IMG/VR virus record: IMGVR_UViG_3300050821_003150 | Coordinates: 1 to 39,689 of that record | Direction: 5' to 3' (one strand) | DNA: 39,689 nucleotides | Source: a virus | Notes under the pieces: generated by a model | Seen by the model: the letters and a program-made list of their open reading frames with translations, nothing else | Database searches by the model: none | Told to the model about the DNA's origin: nothing | Position numbers and translations under genes: made by a program | Shown here: positions 4,265 to 39,672 of the stretch, in pieces | Layout: the number at the start of each line of letters is the position of its first letter | How positions within the stretch are numbered: position 1 is the first letter of the stretch

Positions 4265-5245
4265 TCATTTTCCTTTCAATCCCATCAATCTTTCAAATGC
4301 TTCTCTCGCTTGGGCTGGAACCACGCTATTGCCCAAACACTTAAGACGGTCCACTCGGAAGGGTATCCCATAAGCCACTCGACCCACGTTGGGTTCAGAC
4401 TCCCACCAACCTTTTCTTCCAGCGTCGGGTGGAGCCCGACGCTGGAATATCCTCCGACTTTGTTTGCTCTTGGCGTGGGCCATTTTTTCACTTGCCCAGG
4501 AAGATCCAGGGCAAGTCCTTTGTATGCCCTGCCCTGCGGTCCCTTCCAATCCCTTGCTTGAGGGGTTCTCCAATGGACTGCTCGTCCGAGCAGTCCATTC
4601 TCGGGAACATTTCGACAGCTCTTCGCTGTTCCGTCTTTCCAATCTCTTTGCGTCGGTGTCGGCCACCTTACCTGATCGTTTAAGCTGATCAGCATTTTCT
4701 TTTTGAGCTTCCAATTCATTCTTTCCCTGCTCGCGGGTCCCCGCGAGCAGTTCGCATCGGGAGTGCGCCAGAAGGAACCATCGCTCTCTTTTGTGGTTCG
4801 CTCCCACATCGGCAGCGGATAACATTCCATACCGACAGTCATAGCCGATTTCGGCCAGAGCTTTGAGGACAGCTCCAAGTCCTTTAGTGCGAATGTTCGA
4901 GACATTTTCGAGGAAGATCCATTCGGCTTTTGTTTCTTTTGCCAATCGGCATATTTCGCTAAATAGACCGCTCCGTTTTCCTTCCAAGCCAACCTGCTTT
5001 CCTGCAACACTGATATCCTGACAGGGGAAGCCTCCATAGATAATGTCGATGGGTGGCAACAAGCCTGATTGCAATGTCCGAACGTCATCCCAAACAGGAG
5101 CGACGGGCAGATCTCCGCTGGACATTCTCGATAACAGGACGCCGATTGCATATCTATCGTTTTCACAATAGGCAACGGGCCTGACGTAGCCTTCCAGAGC
5201 CTTTGTGATTCCTCCGATTCCGCTAAATAAATCCAAGCCATTCAC
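4265..5245 (-). CDS. dcm: DNA (cytosine-5) methyltransferase
   Basis: 326 residues with motifs in canonical order: FSGIGG (I, 7-12), CENDRYA (II), GGFPCQDIS with nucleophile Cys75 (IV), FLENVSNI (VI, 111-118), HKRERWFLLA (VIII, 151-160) and LKCLGNSVVPAQA (X, about 302-314). The specificity region between VIII and X is repetitive (VADTDAKRLERR, LENPSSKGLEG, MAHAKSKQSRR). GTG start overlaps the upstream TGA as GTGA, with GAGAGG 5 bases before. It would methylate cytosines, probably protecting phage DNA from host restriction. The whole gene is also open in a second frame on the same strand (4285-5241). Confidence 0.93.
   Translation of the reverse strand: MNGLDLFSGIGGITKALEGYVRPVAYCENDRYAIGVLLSRMSSGDLPVAPVWDDVRTLQSGLLPPIDIIYGGFPCQDISVAGKQVGLEGKRSGLFSEICRLAKETKAEWIFLENVSNIRTKGLGAVLKALAEIGYDCRYGMLSAADVGANHKRERWFLLAHSRCELLAGTREQGKNELEAQKENADQLKRSGKVADTDAKRLERRNSEELSKCSREWTARTSSPLENPSSKGLEGTAGQGIQRTCPGSSWASEKMAHAKSKQSRRIFQRRAPPDAGRKGWWESEPNVGRVAYGIPFRVDRLKCLGNSVVPAQAREAFERLMGLKGK
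4285..5241 (-). CDS. Overlapping second reading frame inside the methyltransferase gene
   Basis: 318 codons, open in another frame of the same strand, spanning almost the whole methyltransferase. Its ATG follows directly on the upstream gene's TGA (TGAATG), with GAGAGG 9 bases upstream, a better-spaced start than the methyltransferase's GTG. The product has four Trp-[Pro/Arg]-Thr-Pro repeats (158, 193, 224, 254), e.g. WPTPTQRDWKDG, and ends with SLNPTWVEWLMGYPSEWT. I recall hypothetical phage proteins with this WPTPT...NPxWVEWLMGxP pattern. These repeats are the shifted reading of the methyltransferase repeats. It may be a real overprinted gene or an echo of constrained sequence in frame one. 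Confidence 0.4.
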   Translation of the reverse strand: MAWIYLAESEESQRLWKATSGPLPIVKTIDMQSASCYRECPAEICPSLLFGMTFGHCNQACCHPSTLSMEASPVRISVLQESRLAWKENGAVYLAKYADWQKKQKPNGSSSKMSRTFALKDLELSSKLWPKSAMTVGMECYPLPMWERTTKESDGSFWRTPDANCSRGPASRERMNWKLKKKMLISLNDQVRWPTPTQRDWKDGTAKSCRNVPENGLLGRAVHWRTPQARDWKGPQGRAYKGLALDLPGQVKKWPTPRANKVGGYSSVGLHPTLEEKVGGSLNPTWVEWLMGYPSEWTVLSVWAIAWFQPKREKHLKD

Positions 5246-5427
5246 GCTAACCTCTCTTTGAACTGCGATTGATGAATCATCCCGATAAATCCTCTGGCGG
5301 TCATCAGCCGGATAAACCCTCCCGGCCTCTTCTCTAAAACCGTAACCTCAGACCCATCCGTCAGCCTCCACTTTTCCCCTCGTAATTGAGGCAGCACTTT
5401 CTTAACCTTGGGATTCTTGGGTGGCAT
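5242..5427 (-). CDS. Small basic hypothetical protein
   Basis: 61 residues, beta-rich (KWRLTDGSEVTVLEKRPGGFIRLM), resembling a small SH3- or KOW-like barrel, without a recognised family. Start overlaps the end of the SLOG gene by 26 bases; no strong Shine-Dalgarno, so coupled translation is likely. Its TGA doubles as part of the GTGA start of the methyltransferase. Confidence 0.6.
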   Translation of the reverse strand: MPPKNPKVKKVLPQLRGEKWRLTDGSEVTVLEKRPGGFIRLMTARGFIGMIHQSQFKERLA

Positions 5428-5758
5428 TTTTAATCACCGAATGTAATTTTCCTGCTTTTTTTGCAATAGCAATAGAAATCTTTGTTCCCTTTGATTCCCC
5501 ATCCCAGAACGCAACCAATTTATCGCAGTAATCTACAATCTGCTGATTGCGTAGGGCTCCGGCTTTTTTCCCGTATTTTTTCCAATCCGGCCTAAATACT
5601 TTGACGGGGACAAAAAAGACAGTACTCCATTCTTCTGCTATCCTATCTGCTCCTTCGGCCCCGCCTGTTACAATTTCCGAAGGATTCAATTCATCAAGAA
5701 CCCTGAAAATACTTCTCATGTCGTTCCATGTTCTTGACCCCACTACGGCCAACTTCAT
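5402..5758 (-). CDS. SLOG-fold protein (DUF2493/YspA-like)
   Basis: 118 residues with the full pattern: KLAVVGSRTW (1-10), EIVTGGAEGADRIAEEW (28-44), VFRPDWKKYGKKAGALRNQQIV and DKLVAFWDGESKGTKISI. This is the Rossmann-like SLOG domain (DUF2493), whose relatives bind nucleotides or nucleotide-derived ligands. The GGAxGAD loop is the expected phosphate-binding site. Phage copies have no settled role; nucleotide signalling or DNA metabolism is possible. TGAGG precedes the ATG. Confidence 0.88.
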   Translation of the reverse strand: MKLAVVGSRTWNDMRSIFRVLDELNPSEIVTGGAEGADRIAEEWSTVFFVPVKVFRPDWKKYGKKAGALRNQQIVDYCDKLVAFWDGESKGTKISIAIAKKAGKLHSVIKNATQESQG

Positions 5759-10395: not shown

Positions 10396-10493
10396 CGGGC
10401 CACCCCCTGCAATTTTCGGAGCGCGTCCGCATTGACAATCACTTGACCGCCATTGACGTAAAGTATCGTTTTCCAGCCGTGTTGTTTACTCAT
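10392..10493 (-). CDS. 33-residue hypothetical peptide
   Basis: GGAGG lies about 9 bases before the ATG; start and stop overlap both neighbours (ATGA). Sequence starts MSKQHGWKTILYVNGGQVIV and ends LQGVAR. Two strands and a helix. No homologue recognised. Confidence 0.5.
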   Translation of the reverse strand: MSKQHGWKTILYVNGGQVIVNADALRKLQGVAR

Positions 10494-10984
10494 GTTTTGA
10501 ATCCTCCTTTTAATAATTTAATTCCATAGTTAAGGATTTTTATCTGCATCTCTTTTCGCACATCATCATCAGCAGCAGCATCAGCAGCATAAGCATCAGC
10601 AGCAGTATCAGCAGCAGCATCAGCAGCAGCAGCATCAGCATCAGCATAAGCAGCAGCATAAGCAGCATCAGCAGCAGCATAAGCAGCATCAGCAGCAGCA
10701 GCATAAGCATCAGCAGCAGCATCAGCAGCATCAGCAGCATAAGCCCTATTTTCGGGCGTATCATTTTTCAATACAGCCCGCGCCGCCTCAACTGCTTTTC
10801 TTGGGCGTTTATCTTCGGGGTGCCTTTTCTCGAAAATATCGAGCACCTGCTCCGCTGAAAAAATGGCATAAGCTAAACACTGCTTACGCTCCATGACACG
10901 CACTATGAGCCAGTTCGCCCATGACAATTCATCATCAGAGATAAGAGATTCTAAGACGGTCAAGCTATCCGTTTTCTTTACCAT
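10490..10984 (-). CDS. Imm5-like Ala-rich phage protein, probably lacking its first ~20 residues
   Basis: 164 residues. SWANWLIVRVMERKQCLAYAIFSAEQVLDIF and RPRKAVEAARAVL match the phage relatives of the Imm5-type immunity domain. Residues about 81-141 are an Ala/Tyr/Asp/Thr repeat, then a helix (EMQIKILNYGIKLLKGG). In relatives I recall, this core is preceded by a segment like ITxxWLxxKxACxEGxxWF. That segment is encoded just upstream in another frame (10978-11040), so a one-base loss appears to have split the gene. Function in phages unknown; immunity against toxins is a name, not a demonstrated role. Confidence 0.7.
   Translation of the reverse strand: MVKKTDSLTVLESLISDDELSWANWLIVRVMERKQCLAYAIFSAEQVLDIFEKRHPEDKRPRKAVEAARAVLKNDTPENRAYAADAADAAADAYAAAADAAYAAADAAYAAAYADADAAAADAAADTAADAYAADAAADDDVRKEMQIKILNYGIKLLKGGFKT
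10561..10743. repeat. Trinucleotide-type repeat (AGC/CAT/TAA triplets)
   Basis: About 183 bases built of agc, atc, ata triplets, encoding the Ala/Asp/Tyr helix repeats of the Imm5-like protein on the minus strand. Repeat length is likely variable between relatives. The leucine/methionine frame also open here is a by-product of the repeat. Confidence 0.9.
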
Positions 10985-11869: not shown

Positions 11870-12019
11870 CTACGCGAACTTACGCAACACTAAGATTTCA
11901 ACCTGTTCCGTGTTGGGGGGTAGCCCTTCTGTGAGAGCATCCCAAATACCGAGGTCTAAACCATGCTCCGAAAGATCACCTCTTTCAATTACAACCGTAT
12001 TACGCTTTTCCTTTTTCAT
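11870..12019 (-). CDS. Small hypothetical protein
   Basis: 49 residues from ATG 12019 (GGAGGAGG upstream, ATGA overlap with the upstream gene). Sequence includes NTVVIERGDLSEHG and EQVEILVLRKFA. The same frame is open for 53 codons upstream without a usable start (see finding on 12016-12190), so it may be the end of a longer protein. Confidence 0.6.
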   Translation of the reverse strand: MKKEKRNTVVIERGDLSEHGLDLGIWDALTEGLPPNTEQVEILVLRKFA

Positions 12020-12186
12020 GACAGCACCTCCTCCTTTTTTTCTTGATCCAATTTCGCTTGCAACTTCTCCCACTCTTTCAGACAATACAGGTAATACCGC
12101 TTCGATTGCCTGATAGATAATATGAGTATGGATTTTTCCCTCTTCATTCCTTGCATACTCGGAATCAAATCTAACAGTTTAGCCAT
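12016..12186 (-). CDS. Small basic hypothetical protein, frame uncertain
   Basis: 56 residues, start MAKLLDLIPSMQGMKREK, ending KLDQEKKEEVLS; ATGA junction with the next gene. Helical and basic. The overlapping frame (TVRFDSEYARNEEGK...) looks equally protein-like and would be joined to MAK by one extra A, so this frame could be an artefact of a base deletion. Confidence 0.4.
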   Translation of the reverse strand: MAKLLDLIPSMQGMKREKSILILSIRQSKRYYLYCLKEWEKLQAKLDQEKKEEVLS

Positions 12187-12193
12187 ACATCCC

Positions 12194-12224
12194 GTCAGCC
12201 CAAGGCCCTAAAGCCTGGGCTGAC
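12194..12224. other. Intergenic hairpin
   Basis: gtcagccc/gggctgac 8-bp stem extended by aggc/gcct with one bulged base, 6-base loop. It starts 10 bases after the stop at 12235 on the minus strand. No U-tract. Confidence 0.75.
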
Positions 12225-12234
12225 TGGTCTAGGG

Positions 12235-12450
12235 CTATTCTCCGTATTCGTTCAAGGAATGGTCACGGTCAAAGCGGTCCTCACACGCATTGATCCGGTC
12301 CTGCTCACGCTGACACGGTGGGCAAAGTTCTCCGAACTGATTTGGCGTTTCACACTCAGGACACATTTGAACGCTGTCATCATAATCCGGTTCACCATCA
12401 GTATCCGGTTCCAATTCCATTAACAAATCACCATTTGGAAACATTCTCAT
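12235..12450 (-). CDS. Small acidic zinc-ribbon protein, first gene of the minus block
   Basis: 71 residues from ATG 12450, since AAGGG is 6 bases upstream of it; an ATG at 12456 touches that site. Acidic N-terminal half (ELEPDTDGEPDYDDS), then CPEC and CPPC (zinc ribbon), then charged helix. It is the promoter-proximal gene of the leftward transcript. Possibly a small regulator or inhibitor of a host protein; not shown. Confidence 0.7.
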   Translation of the reverse strand: MRMFPNGDLLMELEPDTDGEPDYDDSVQMCPECETPNQFGELCPPCQREQDRINACEDRFDRDHSLNEYGE

Positions 12451-12477
12451 CACCATCCCTTCTATAATACCATTAAT

Positions 12478-12566
12478 TTAATGTAAGGTAAGTATACCAG
12501 TGTAGGAGATGAAGTCAAGGGAATAATGAGTAAAACCATGGGTCTAAAGACTCATAATTACATTAA
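12478..12566. promoter_or_regulatory. Paired 9-bp operator candidates
   Basis: TTAATGTAA at 12478-12486 and its exact reverse complement TTACATTAA at 12558-12566 flank the leftward promoter. Each is itself nearly palindromic (TTA-N3-TAA). Candidate binding sites of a repressor in the divergent region. Confidence 0.45.
12491..12518 (-). promoter_or_regulatory. Leftward sigma70 promoter of the early block
   Basis: On the minus strand: TTGACT (12518-12513), 16-bp spacer, TATACT (12496-12491). It lies 41 bases upstream of the first minus-strand start and should drive the long leftward operon. Confidence 0.7.
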
Positions 12567-12644
12567 GTTACTGGCATGATAAGTATCGATTGGACCCATA
12601 ATAATGCGTTAAATTGAATCCTGGAGCGTGTGGGAAAGTATAAA

Positions 12645-12674
12645 TTGACGCTACAATCGTTTTTAGAGTAATAT
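12645..12674 (+). promoter_or_regulatory. Rightward sigma70 promoter
   Basis: TTGACG (12645-12650), 18-bp spacer, TAATAT (12669-12674). The expected start site is near 12681, upstream of a terminator at 12713-12742 and of the ATPase gene at 12816. Confidence 0.65.
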
Positions 12675-12712
12675 GGGCCTATGGGTTCACGCACACTCTT
12701 AAACGATACGCT

Positions 12713-12742
12713 CCGACGGTGATACTCTCCGTCGGTATTTTT
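12713..12742 (+). terminator. Intrinsic terminator in the leader of the rightward transcript
   Basis: Stem ccgacgg/ccgtcgg (12713-12719 with 12729-12735), 9-base loop, then tatttttat. A 13-codon frame ATG 12681 to TGA 12720 (MGSRTLLNDTLRR) ends at the loop, so attenuation linked to translation is conceivable. Confidence 0.7.
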
Positions 12743-12744
12743 AT

Positions 12745-12792
12745 GCCTCTCCTTGCCGGATATCGTGTGCGCCGGACCCATCGGGGAGAGGC
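12745..12792. other. Large hairpin before the ATPase gene
   Basis: gcctctcc/ggagaggc 8-bp stem enclosing a ccgg/ccgg inner stem. It lies between the leader terminator and the ribosome site of the gene at 12816. With the terminator it forms a structured leader of unknown regulatory use. Confidence 0.6.
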
Positions 12793-12815
12793 ATTGAAAT
12801 TTTGCGGGGGAATTT

Positions 12816-14165
12816 ATGGCGAAATCCGTCGATGAAATTTTAGGGGAACTACAAGGCGGTCAACCCCGATTTTCTCTTTTGAATGGTCAAGAGTTTTTGA
12901 GTCAACCGCAACGGGAAATCGGATGGATGGTGGAGGGGATTTGGGTCAAAGGCGCAAGAGGTCTTATCGCCGGAAATCCTGGGGTAGGAAAGACCTGGTT
13001 AGCCCTGGATATGCTACTGGCGGTAGCGACGGGGGGTTTGTGCATGGGCAGGTATCAAGCGATCAAATCCCCCGCTCTTTTAGTGGAGGAGGAGGGATCA
13101 GAGCTTCATTTACAGAGAAGGATACACGCTCTGGCCAGAGCACGACAGCTTAAAGAATCGGAGCTTGCTTCCTTGTTTTTTATCATCCGTCAATTTACCA
13201 AAATACCACAAGATTTAAAGGCGTTATGTCATTTAATTATGTTGAATGATATTAAACTGGTCGTGTTTGATTCCTTGCGGAGATTCCATAACAAAGAGGA
13301 AAATTCCAGTTCCGAGATGCAAGAGGTTTTAGACGCTTTTGGGCGGTTAAATCAAATCACCGGAGCGGCCGTTATTTTAATCCATCATTTATCCAAACAA
13401 ACGGAAAATTCACATCGACCGCTCTTTGAACGCTTGCGCGGATCAAGCGATTTCCTGGCCTGGCGCGATTGCGTTATCGGAGTGGAGGGGGAAGAGGATG
13501 CTACGGAATCCGTCGCTAGTTTCCAGTTTAGGGATGCCGATCCAACGGCCCCTATCCGTATCAAGCGTCACGTCGGAGAGTTGACGGGTGCTATTTCCCT
13601 GGAAGCAACAGGCCTGGAAGAGTCTGAAGAAGTAGCCGATAAAATAGCGTCTATACTTAATGTAATGACAGCCCATTTAGAGCCCTTATCGAAGGATCAA
13701 ATCCTCACCAGCACTAAGGGACGTAAACAGGATTTGGCTAGAGCATTTAAGATTATGATAGACCGTCACATGGTGCTAAAATCAGGTTCAAAATGGATCG
13801 TTCCCGATTCGGCCGGAACGAATAGGAACGACGGGAACGAAATTCTGGATGTAATCGTTCCCAGTTCCGCCCCCCTAAAGGGGGGGGCGGGAACGATGGG
13901 AAGCGATTCCAAACATCCACCAGCGGAACGGGAGGAAACGGAAGATGAAAACATGGCAAGAGTACGAAATGGAAAAACGAAAATTGAAACAACGGGAAGC
14001 GAACGGCGAAATTCTGAATTGGGAAACGGAGATCAAAAAGATAACCGACAAACTGAATTTGTAGTACCTAAACGTAATGATAACGGCCCAGAGGAAGAAG
14101 AGGACTATAGCCCGTCCTGGGATTTGAGCGGAGGCCCTAGCGGTAAACCGGAAGGAAATTTCTGA
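12816..14165 (+). CDS. RecA-fold helicase-like ATPase (RepA/AAA_25 type)
   Basis: 449 residues. Walker A GNPGVGKT (53-60), VEEEG (90-94) with the catalytic Glu, Walker B LVVFDSLRRF (149-157), and VILIHHLSK (187-194) as the sensor. This is the hexameric RepA/DnaB-like class found in plasmid and phage replication, so it probably loads or acts as the replication helicase. Residues about 270-330 resemble a winged helix (ILTSTKGRKQDLARAFKIMI); 330-449 are Gly/Asn/Glu-rich and disordered. GGGGG precedes the ATG. No DNA polymerase is seen, so host replisome use is likely. The disordered region contains iteron-like repeats (13798-13896). Confidence 0.85.
   Translation: MAKSVDEILGELQGGQPRFSLLNGQEFLSQPQREIGWMVEGIWVKGARGLIAGNPGVGKTWLALDMLLAVATGGLCMGRYQAIKSPALLVEEEGSELHLQRRIHALARARQLKESELASLFFIIRQFTKIPQDLKALCHLIMLNDIKLVVFDSLRRFHNKEENSSSEMQEVLDAFGRLNQITGAAVILIHHLSKQTENSHRPLFERLRGSSDFLAWRDCVIGVEGEEDATESVASFQFRDADPTAPIRIKRHVGELTGAISLEATGLEESEEVADKIASILNVMTAHLEPLSKDQILTSTKGRKQDLARAFKIMIDRHMVLKSGSKWIVPDSAGTNRNDGNEILDVIVPSSAPLKGGAGTMGSDSKHPPAEREETEDENMARVRNGKTKIETTGSERRNSELGNGDQKDNRQTEFVVPKRNDNGPEEEEDYSPSWDLSGGPSGKPEGNF
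13798..13896. repeat. Iteron-like GGAACGA cluster, candidate replication origin
   Basis: Six exact copies of GGAACGA or its complement in 99 bases: direct at 13815, 13825, 13834 and 13890; inverted (TCGTTCC) at 13798 and 13855. The three central copies are 9-10 bp apart, one helical turn. A strong GC hairpin (13864-13894) overlaps the last copy. Location inside the initiator/helicase-like gene parallels the lambda O gene origin. Confidence 0.6.
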
Positions 14166-38100: not shown

Positions 38101-38329
38101 CCGAGACTCCGCTCCACTGCCCATCGGTGTGGATGTGGTCTTTAAAATCCTTCAAGGCCGTCGAGGAGTGAATGACATGATGACTTCTATGTTCCCTTCG
38201 ATTAACGCTCCGTTGGACCTTTTGGGCGATGTAGGGGAAACGATCAAGAAAGGAAAAATGGATAAGCAGACGAAGAAAGACTTTGAACGCCATATCCCAG
38301 GAGTTGGTACTTTCATATCTCATACATGA
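35126..38329 (+). CDS. Large ejection-type protein with ART-like domain
   Basis: 1067 residues from ATG 35126 (TAATG overlap). N-terminus has three PPSxR repeats (LPPSLRAS, VPPSMRTP, TPPSMRSG). Residues about 245-365 look like an ADP-ribosyltransferase fold: MYHGTALRSLDSILKQGEIR (249-), SISLSREPKIAECFG (286-) and YKGIEHRL with Glu330, matching the H-Y/H-G-T, S-T/L-S and E positions in order. The C-terminal ~580 residues are helical with AFQFKNFIYVISREMGGSIARAA as in large internal virion proteins. An injected enzyme acting on host factors (compare T4 Alt) is plausible but inferred. Confidence 0.65.
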   Translation: MADDDLPPSLRASGDVPPSMRTPDQTPPSMRSGMVSAPMPSRPDPMQATFEQDKNVKAGEEVPAEGKAFMAAESAAGGYYLPQLPGQIIRGAKALGELPKTVEEAMNAVKTGGGAEEFPRASIEGDKIVKAPWDMTKEEFSKEEAKGMGISWQNAVKDDNGNIHVSNTAEHGDMVPKLRDQGLIGDEDKPQYRGWVWKGLDKDKTFIDVGDLQKSGGDFHQAYLNKKPEDPKHGSIADIFKFEKEPGTMYHGTALRSLDSILKQGEIRPNISADADNIMKEHPSISLSREPKIAECFGNVVFHVKEDKVPDAYEAEKMWAQYGDKYKGIEHRLDRPIPLKDVDKVTIQLGSKEGMDYKFAGSKTVQEYVDDLKSRGIQVDIQKPQDPRDVLKQVAKDSVEKVLPQSSKSAEHLAIDAETAGSQAPRALGVPSAMVDSSSKLKGTETAPALKPEIIPGTRAWSTQIWQRLVTPAAKAIAAQGPSGQSLAADIIKVRDVPSVRYGMEFGAGFEELYNQLPKKFVEQVGNEIQMSLENKSFESDLPSDVKIIRSKLAEEAKNGLKRISDWAQIANDGKPIKIHRTNGDVVDWAPRGDYYPRWVKTDILEDIVRGQEGRMKQLAQHLLDSRQAPNSQAAMEQVRNFRKGLLDRKFGHIERSREMDLPPMFYETNAFKVIPQYMKTAYQRLSEVETFGLNDHKAIGKIMNIAHEGGDEDLAIRSYRRITGRDPVDAVAKGMFSALRNWATGSMIQFQTTLYHLPRTLYPALEAGFLKSFKGLWNAIGESGDLEATRMGVNLSRGMSEFLQEEYGGGKGVSGKFAQKMLTLEGIKPLDRFDRKYSAIVGKDYIENDLVKTLLKKPGNSRAREGLQSLGIDTDKILANKKIDPLDLNVGAKRFSDRWQGAPDPTRLPMWATTNPIVHSAFQFKNFIYVISREMGGSIARAARTGDMATLARFGSLPMAGGVVYGIRHEMGLHDTKYVDDPKLNQALNVLRDSAPLPIGVDVVFKILQGRRGVNDMMTSMFPSINAPLDLLGDVGETIKKGKMDKQTKKDFERHIPGVGTFISHT

Positions 38330-39672
38330 AGATACTCTACCTCTCAGCGAAAGGCGACTCTTTCCCTCTCGGATGCGAGATGGTCAAAGAGGGCCATGAG
38401 GTCAAATTCTACACCAAGTCCCCGAAGGATAAGGACGCGGGCACGGGATTTGTGCCTTTGGTCGATAACTATGTCGATCATTTGAAGTGGGCGGATTTGG
38501 TGATTACAGACGACACGATCTGGGGGAAGATCAATGACTCCATTCGGAAAATGGGAATACCGGTTATCGGTGGAACGCCGGTTACGGACAAGCTCGAAGA
38601 AGACCGTCAAGCCGGACAAGAGATGTTTAAAGCCCTTGACATGCAGACGCTCGACTCCAAGGACTTCACGGACATGGACGAAGCCATCGCCTATATCGAA
38701 GAAAACCCCCGTAAATTCGTGGTCAAAGTATCGGGAAAGGCCCAAGACGACAAGACCCTGACGTATGTGGGCCAAATGGAGGATGGTTCAGATGTGCCTA
38801 AAGTCCTAGAACATTATAGGTCCAAGATGGGTTCTGGAATAGCCTCTGTGCAGGTCCAGGATGTGGCCGAAGGGGTGGAAGTGGCCCTGGGCGGGTGGTT
38901 TAATGGTTCTGAGTTCTTAGACCCCTTGCTGCTAAACTTCGAGCACAAAAAGTTAATGAGTTGTCGTTACGAGCAGGCCGGAATAGGTCCTGCCACAGGC
39001 GAGATGGGTACCATCGGATGCTGGAAGGATAAGGGGTTTGAGTTGTATGAAGAGACTCTGGCTAAATTCATTCCCGTTTTAAAGAAGGAGGGCTATCATG
39101 GATACTTTGACATTAACTGCATTGTTCACCCGTATATTGGTCTTGAGCCAAACACTCCTTTTCACGTTCACCCGCTTGAGATGACAAACCGCTTTGGCTG
39201 GCCGACTATTCTTATGCAGATGGAGGCCATGAAGATCCAGGATTTGGGAGAGCTATTCTTAGGCATTGCAAACGGGACCGCCACGGATTATAAAGTGAAT
39301 GGGTACTATTGTGCCTGCGTGGTGATAGGATGCCCGCCACTTCCCTATATCTCTCAGGAGATCGCAGACAAGATGTCCAATGGTCTGCCGATCATTTTTA
39401 AGGACGGGGACTGTGAAGGCGTTTATCCAGGGGATGCGATCCTAAAGGGCGAGGATTGGATTTGTCAGGGAGAGAAGGGCTATCCCTGTGTGGCGACCGG
39501 ATGCGGAGACACTATTCAGGACGCTCAAGCCAAGGCCTACTCCCGTGTCCGTAATATCATCATTCCGAATGCCATGTACCGTGAAGACATCGGAGACCTG
39601 ATTCCTGGAAAGTTAATGCAGATCCAAAGGCTTTTAGAGCATAATAAAATCATGGCGGAAACCATTTCATGA
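38326..39672 (+). CDS. PurD-like ATP-grasp ligase
   Basis: 448 residues, ATGA overlap with the previous gene. KILYLSAKGDSFPLGCEMV (2-20) pre-domain, VIGGTPVTDKLEEDRQ, FVVKVSGKAQDDKT (ATP-binding strands), VEVALGGWFNG, GTIGCW, GYFDINCIVHP, EMTNRFGWPT, and C-terminal TGCGDTIQDAQAKAYSRV. The order matches PurD (phosphoribosylamine-glycine ligase), with Mg/ATP residues at NRFG-x-P. PurD-family ATP-grasp enzymes join a carboxylate to an amine. In a phage it may serve purine synthesis or make a modified nucleotide or peptide bond; substrate unknown. Confidence 0.8.
   Translation: MKILYLSAKGDSFPLGCEMVKEGHEVKFYTKSPKDKDAGTGFVPLVDNYVDHLKWADLVITDDTIWGKINDSIRKMGIPVIGGTPVTDKLEEDRQAGQEMFKALDMQTLDSKDFTDMDEAIAYIEENPRKFVVKVSGKAQDDKTLTYVGQMEDGSDVPKVLEHYRSKMGSGIASVQVQDVAEGVEVALGGWFNGSEFLDPLLLNFEHKKLMSCRYEQAGIGPATGEMGTIGCWKDKGFELYEETLAKFIPVLKKEGYHGYFDINCIVHPYIGLEPNTPFHVHPLEMTNRFGWPTILMQMEAMKIQDLGELFLGIANGTATDYKVNGYYCACVVIGCPPLPYISQEIADKMSNGLPIIFKDGDCEGVYPGDAILKGEDWICQGEKGYPCVATGCGDTIQDAQAKAYSRVRNIIIPNAMYREDIGDLIPGKLMQIQRLLEHNKIMAETIS

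Follow-up and report, generated by a model that had tools for sequence, protein, structure and literature searches.

Two long open reading frames share nearly all of their DNA on the minus strand of the 39,689-nucleotide viral stretch analysed here (IMG/VR record IMGVR_UViG_3300050821_003150, hereafter the window). The first, called alpha, starts at a GTG codon and encodes a C5 cytosine methyltransferase frame of 326 amino acids (4265-5245, minus strand), identified by Pfam, NCBIfam model TIGR00675 and Foldseek. The second, called beta, starts at an ATG codon and is overprinted in frame +1 over 318 codons (4285-5241, minus strand), as indicated by stop depletion, frame dominance and a match to PHROG 1008. 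The two start codons lie 4 nt apart. An upstream reading frame of 61 amino acids (5242-5427, minus strand), with no family match in Pfam or PHROG, is in the same frame as beta; its TGA stop codon overlaps the GTG of alpha (GTGA), and the ATG of beta follows directly. A Shine-Dalgarno-like GAGAGG (5251-5256, minus strand), spaced 5 nt from the alpha GTG and 9 nt from the beta ATG, could serve both starts. The original prediction described two open frames of 326 and 318 codons on one strand with a start signal each (GTGA for one, TGAATG with GAGAGG for the other), and both the coordinates on the minus strand and the start signals were confirmed. Directly upstream of the methyltransferase cluster lies a gene for a SLOG-family (YspA-like) protein (5402-5758, minus strand; Pfam YAcAr, 3e-14). 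Elsewhere in the window, a phage gene at 38326-39672 (plus strand) resembles the ATP-grasp domain of phosphoribosylglycinamide synthetase (Pfam GARS_A, 9.6e-9) and has no PHROG match, a predicted protein at 10490-10984 (minus strand) contains a long low-complexity tract of A, D and Y (AADAYAAAADAAY...), and the GC skew changes sign at about 12000-13000, where the genes switch from the minus to the plus strand.

The alpha frame carries motif I (DLFSGIGG, 5210-5233), motif IV with the catalytic PCQ loop (GGFPCQD, 5015-5035), motif VI (ENV, 4901-4909), motif VIII (HKRERWF, 4775-4795) and motif X (LGNSVVPAQ, 4310-4336), all on the minus strand. Motifs IV and VI are invariant in alignment A2, and the F-G, PCQ, ENV and R.R residues of the PF00145 catalytic domain are invariant across 55 homologues. 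The match to Pfam DNA_methylase (PF00145, 5e-40) covers residues 2-223 only, and residues 1-168 match the catalytic domain of M.HhaI by sequence at 1e-36. In the AlphaFold2 model, predicted from a 55-row alignment, the catalytic domain is confident over residues 1-162, apart from a drop around 70-90, and the motif X helices are formed; Foldseek matched this model to the M.HhaI catalytic domain at 1.6e-15 and also to M.HaeIII. Residues 165-296 were modelled at low confidence (pLDDT about 35-67) with no folded small domain seen, and because of this alpha has no recognisable target-recognition domain. The corresponding codons (4358-4753, minus strand) form a "passenger" stretch that, by its substitution pattern, is variable in frame 1 and conserved in frame 2, and the product of alpha codons 165-300, variable in frame 1, is predicted to be disordered. 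Alpha thus departs from the single-chain form of PF00145, since neither a target-recognition domain nor motif IX was found in its chain.

Beta contains four W[PR]TP repeats on the minus strand, WRTPDANCSRGPASRE (4723-4770), WPTPTQRDWKDGTAKS (4618-4665), WRTPQARDWKGPQGRA (4525-4572) and WPTPRANKVGGYSSVG (4435-4482), which lie at beta residues 158, 193, 224 and 254 and are shifted readings of LAHS, VADT, LENP and MAHA in alpha. Near the C-terminus, where the consensus is LNPxWVEWLMGYPxxW, a motif-IX-like block, LNPTWVEWLMGYPSEWTVL (4342-4398, minus strand; EPNVGRVAYGIP in the alpha frame), is nearly invariant in alignment A1. That the repeats are shifted readings of alpha had been claimed from the letters alone and was borne out at the positions given; likewise, the WLMGYP region had been described as the shifted reading of a conserved alpha stretch before motif X, and NPTWVEWLMGYP in beta does correspond to EPNVGRVAYGIP in alpha. 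When the beta profile was compared with ordinary C5 methyltransferases by hhalign, a single weak alignment was obtained, placing LNPxWVEWLMGYPxxWT on motif IX (E 0.086); with the betas of rearranged loci the alignment reaches motif X too, again weakly (0.028). The window beta matches PHROG 1008 at 4e-24 and has no model in Pfam or NCBIfam. Modelled alone with AlphaFold2 from a 67-row alignment, it gave a poor prediction (mean pLDDT 59) that is uninformative on the true fold, and neither Foldseek (PDB and viral models) nor VIA-align found a meaningful match to this model. Searched against PDB sequences, neither the beta profile nor short motif-IX pieces yielded a relative.

Selection on the second frame was assessed by counting stop codons against an expectation obtained by shuffling synonymous codons within each gene, which preserves both protein and codon usage; the homologues were taken from viral contigs. 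In the window gene, frame +1 contains 3 stops where 10.2 are expected, all in the first codon or the last 8. Across 129 homologues, 433 stops were found in frame +1 versus 1252 expected, and frame +2 showed no depletion (2780 versus 2683). The 109 non-redundant viral homologues, comprising 81 near and 28 far relatives, were also counted by region. Near relatives have 4 stops in frame +1 between codons 20 and 300 (484 expected), and far relatives have 3 between codons 100 and 300 (184 expected). Before about codon 55, stops occur freely in frame +1 of the far relatives, so beta is shorter there. In a control set of 57 ordinary C5 methyltransferases from bacterial genomes, frame +1 contained 979 stops versus 999 expected. 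These counts argue that the second frame is genuinely protein-coding and not an echo of the methyltransferase. Normal synonymous variation and frequent second-frame stops in homologues, which the original prediction had named as evidence against it, were found neither in the 109 non-redundant viral homologues nor in 80 bacterial ones.

The two frames dominate in different parts of the gene. In homologue pairs, the fastest-changing sites of codons 1-100 and 300-326 are the third positions of frame 1, the pattern of any single gene, whereas in codons 165-300 position 1 of frame 1, where frame 2 has its wobble position, changes fastest. Third positions are slowed in codons 100-165, as expected if both proteins matter there. 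In nucleotide alignments, amino acid identity over codons 165-300 was higher in frame 2 than in frame 1 in 82 of 87 pairs, with the reverse elsewhere; over codons 165-240 it was 0.59 in frame 2 versus 0.41 in frame 1. By these substitution patterns, frame 1 dominates where motifs I-VIII (codons 1-165) and motif X (codons 300-326) are encoded, and frame 2 dominates in between (codons 165-300). Beta residues 1 to about 100 are under constraint in near relatives, without an explained function. Near relatives keep ATGGCTTGGATTTATTTAGC, read as MAWIYLA in beta and NGLDLFS in alpha. In a subset of them (L001, L076, L079, L085 and L091) a beta start of the form MxWxYL lies upstream of the alpha NGLDLF block, alpha using other codons there, and this indicates that the N-terminus of beta is conserved in its own right.

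Bacterial relatives were found with the beta profile, and in 80 of 80 such loci the match overlaps a methyltransferase in frame +1; no standalone beta occurred among them. Three of the bacterial relatives, L223 (Bacillota), L180 (Spirochaetia) and L196 (Paraburkholderia), are natural rearrangements in which alpha ends at a TAA right after motif VIII and beta reads on into motif X, the two genes still overlapping across most of the length of alpha. The stretch matched by beta holds 9, 10 and 6 alpha-frame stops, respectively, and none in the beta frame. In the viral locus L159 alpha likewise stops past motif VIII, the beta frame closes past the motif-IX-like block, and a separate small reading frame, whose ATG begins 2 nt beyond the beta stop, holds motif X; this locus (L159:2401-3675) is possibly a three-piece methyltransferase. 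The rearranged loci show that the middle stretch of alpha is needed only for reaching motif X, and they tie beta to the enzyme. Three Synergistaceae relatives, L182 (near 2073-2110), L184 (near 1950-1990) and L203 (near 1917-1960), carry short insertions at the PCQ loop of alpha. An in-frame TAA follows PCQ directly in L182 and L184, with beta open through the insertion, and the site is altered differently, by a frame shift, in L203.

Hundreds of phages and bacteria conserve beta, in most cases without annotation or under a wrong name. Only the second frame is annotated in Klebsiella phage VLCpiM12a (as "DNA methyltransferase"), Salmonella phage W5_chr3 ("Mte8-like protein") and Komagataeibacter phage phiKX1 ("hypothetical"). 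Only alpha is annotated in Acinetobacter phage ABMM1, Lacticaseibacillus phage R9.1 and two enterobacterial plasmids, and both frames are annotated in Paenibacillus phage Diva, where beta is "g49 internal gene". Of 120 evenly sampled Pseudomonadota genomes, 73 contained a match to C5 methyltransferases and 10 a match to beta. The betas of the Klebsiella, Salmonella, Paenibacillus and Komagataeibacter phages match PHROG 1008 ("DNA methyltransferase") at 3e-22 or better, and the end of that profile also matches motif X of the window alpha. The family is named as the enzyme itself, yet its core corresponds to the second-frame subunit, which has no catalytic motifs.

Known C5 methyltransferases offer partial parallels to this arrangement. 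The window alpha shares its catalytic domain with M.HhaI and M.HaeIII, but these are single-chain enzymes, in which the one frame encodes the target-recognition domain and motif IX as well. Two-subunit enzymes are also known: M.EcoHK31I recognises YGGCCR and M.AquI recognises CYCGRG. The beta subunit of M.EcoHK31I (176 aa) was reportedly found by Lee, Kam and Shaw in 1995 to be encoded by a second frame lying within the alpha gene. In M.EcoHK31I, motifs I-VIII and X are located on the large subunit and motif IX on the small one, with the predicted target-recognition domain assigned to the large subunit; M.AquI is split between motif VIII and motifs IX-X (PMC3404938). By description, the window resembles M.EcoHK31I, as an extreme case of that kind, in that alpha has motifs I-VIII and X without motif IX, and in that a second polypeptide would come from another frame of the large-subunit gene, which here is seen as coding constraint on frame +1. 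The differences are that the window beta has 318 residues, overlaps nearly all of alpha and starts 4 nt from it, that the target-recognition region apparently lies in the second frame and not in alpha, and that no restriction enzyme gene was recognised near the window methyltransferase. The M.AquI layout, with motif X on beta, is approached only in the relatives L180, L196 and L223; in the window motif X is on alpha, and a second subunit with both motifs IX and X was not found. In the open-licence literature, the two-subunit precedent was found but no report of such an overlap in phages.

At this locus, the two subunits of one C5 cytosine methyltransferase are most likely encoded by the same DNA in two frames, and beta is proposed as the target-recognition and motif-IX subunit. 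Alpha would provide motifs I-VIII, which make up the catalytic domain, and the motif X helix at its C-terminus, with the stretch between motifs VIII and X, which is without conserved sequence, serving as a linker. Beta would supply the part that ordinary enzymes hold between motifs VIII and X, namely a target-recognition region (the WPTP repeats) and the motif-IX-like block. Both would be translated from starts 4 nt apart behind one ribosome-binding site and would assemble into one enzyme, which probably methylates phage DNA and protects it against host restriction. Such protection is what would ordinarily be expected of an orphan phage methyltransferase. The comparisons establish dual coding, the dominance of each frame in its own region, the conservation of the beta start and motif, and rearrangements in nature that place motif X on beta; that both frames are translated in this phage, that alpha and beta form a complex, that beta gives specificity and that the role is protective is what we infer for the locus. 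A more far-reaching reading is somewhat doubtful: that a catalytic and a DNA-reading subunit are overprinted over nearly their full length; that the latter belongs to an undescribed WPTP-repeat family, whose repeats differ in number from relative to relative and may determine specificity; and that the overlap was dissolved and re-split several times in evolution.

Several observations weigh against the two-subunit reading, namely the poor predicted fold of beta alone, its lack of a structure match, the weak motif-IX match, the unexplained role of its first ~100 residues and the placement of the M.EcoHK31I target-recognition domain on the large subunit. In a rival reading, beta is a real overprinted protein of phages or mobile elements that happened to be born inside methyltransferase genes and acts independently, for example as an anti-restriction or regulatory factor. 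Such a protein would fit the absence of a recognisable fold or family function, and in the clade of the window beta spans nearly all of alpha, beyond what motif IX needs. An independent protein is nevertheless unlikely, since a methyltransferase overlaps the beta relative at the same offset in all 80 bacterial loci, three natural rearrangements fuse the motif X of the enzyme to beta, and alpha is without a folded target-recognition domain and motif IX. By analogy with M.EcoHK31I, the most likely role of beta is that of a second subunit in this one enzyme, bearing the target-recognition region and motif IX.

The ordinary motif order would also be restored in one hybrid protein if ribosomes shifted from frame 1 to frame 2 after motif VIII and back before motif X, giving frame-1 codons 1-165, frame-2 codons 165-300 and frame-1 motif X, and a single shift would suffice in L180, L196 and L223. 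The window, however, would require two opposite shifts, and frame 2 is open well upstream of codon 165. A double frameshift hybrid was rejected as very improbable on two further grounds: beta has its own conserved start and N-terminus, and the stop contexts of alpha differ among the rearranged loci (three TAA, one TGA) with no shared slip site. The original prediction had left a choice between an expressed overprinted gene and database entries that merely echo the methyltransferase, the second frame being open only through the protein sequence, codon bias and internal repeats of the enzyme. The coding constraint favours the first; echoes do account for the weak second-frame profile matches in ordinary methyltransferases (L268, L269 and L299), which contain many stops, but not for the whole. 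As a full explanation an echo is hardly credible, because synonymous shuffles predict three times more stops overall and far more in the core, and the frame-2 wobble position is the fast site in codons 165-300. With these shuffles and the 57 ordinary enzymes, which have no stop depletion, as controls, an origin from codon bias was rejected.

To our knowledge, DNA genomes rarely contain long overlaps between two proven proteins on the same strand, and gene finders exclude them; the overlap described here is supported by hundreds of diverse homologues. Since both products likely belong to one enzyme, theory on dual coding could be tested at this locus by a simple methylation readout. If alpha were cloned by itself, the product would probably be inactive, and the activity in the name of PHROG 1008 may be one that the members of this family lack on their own. 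For a widespread class of methyltransferases in phages and bacteria, the annotation would thus cover one half of an enzyme, and it may be either half.
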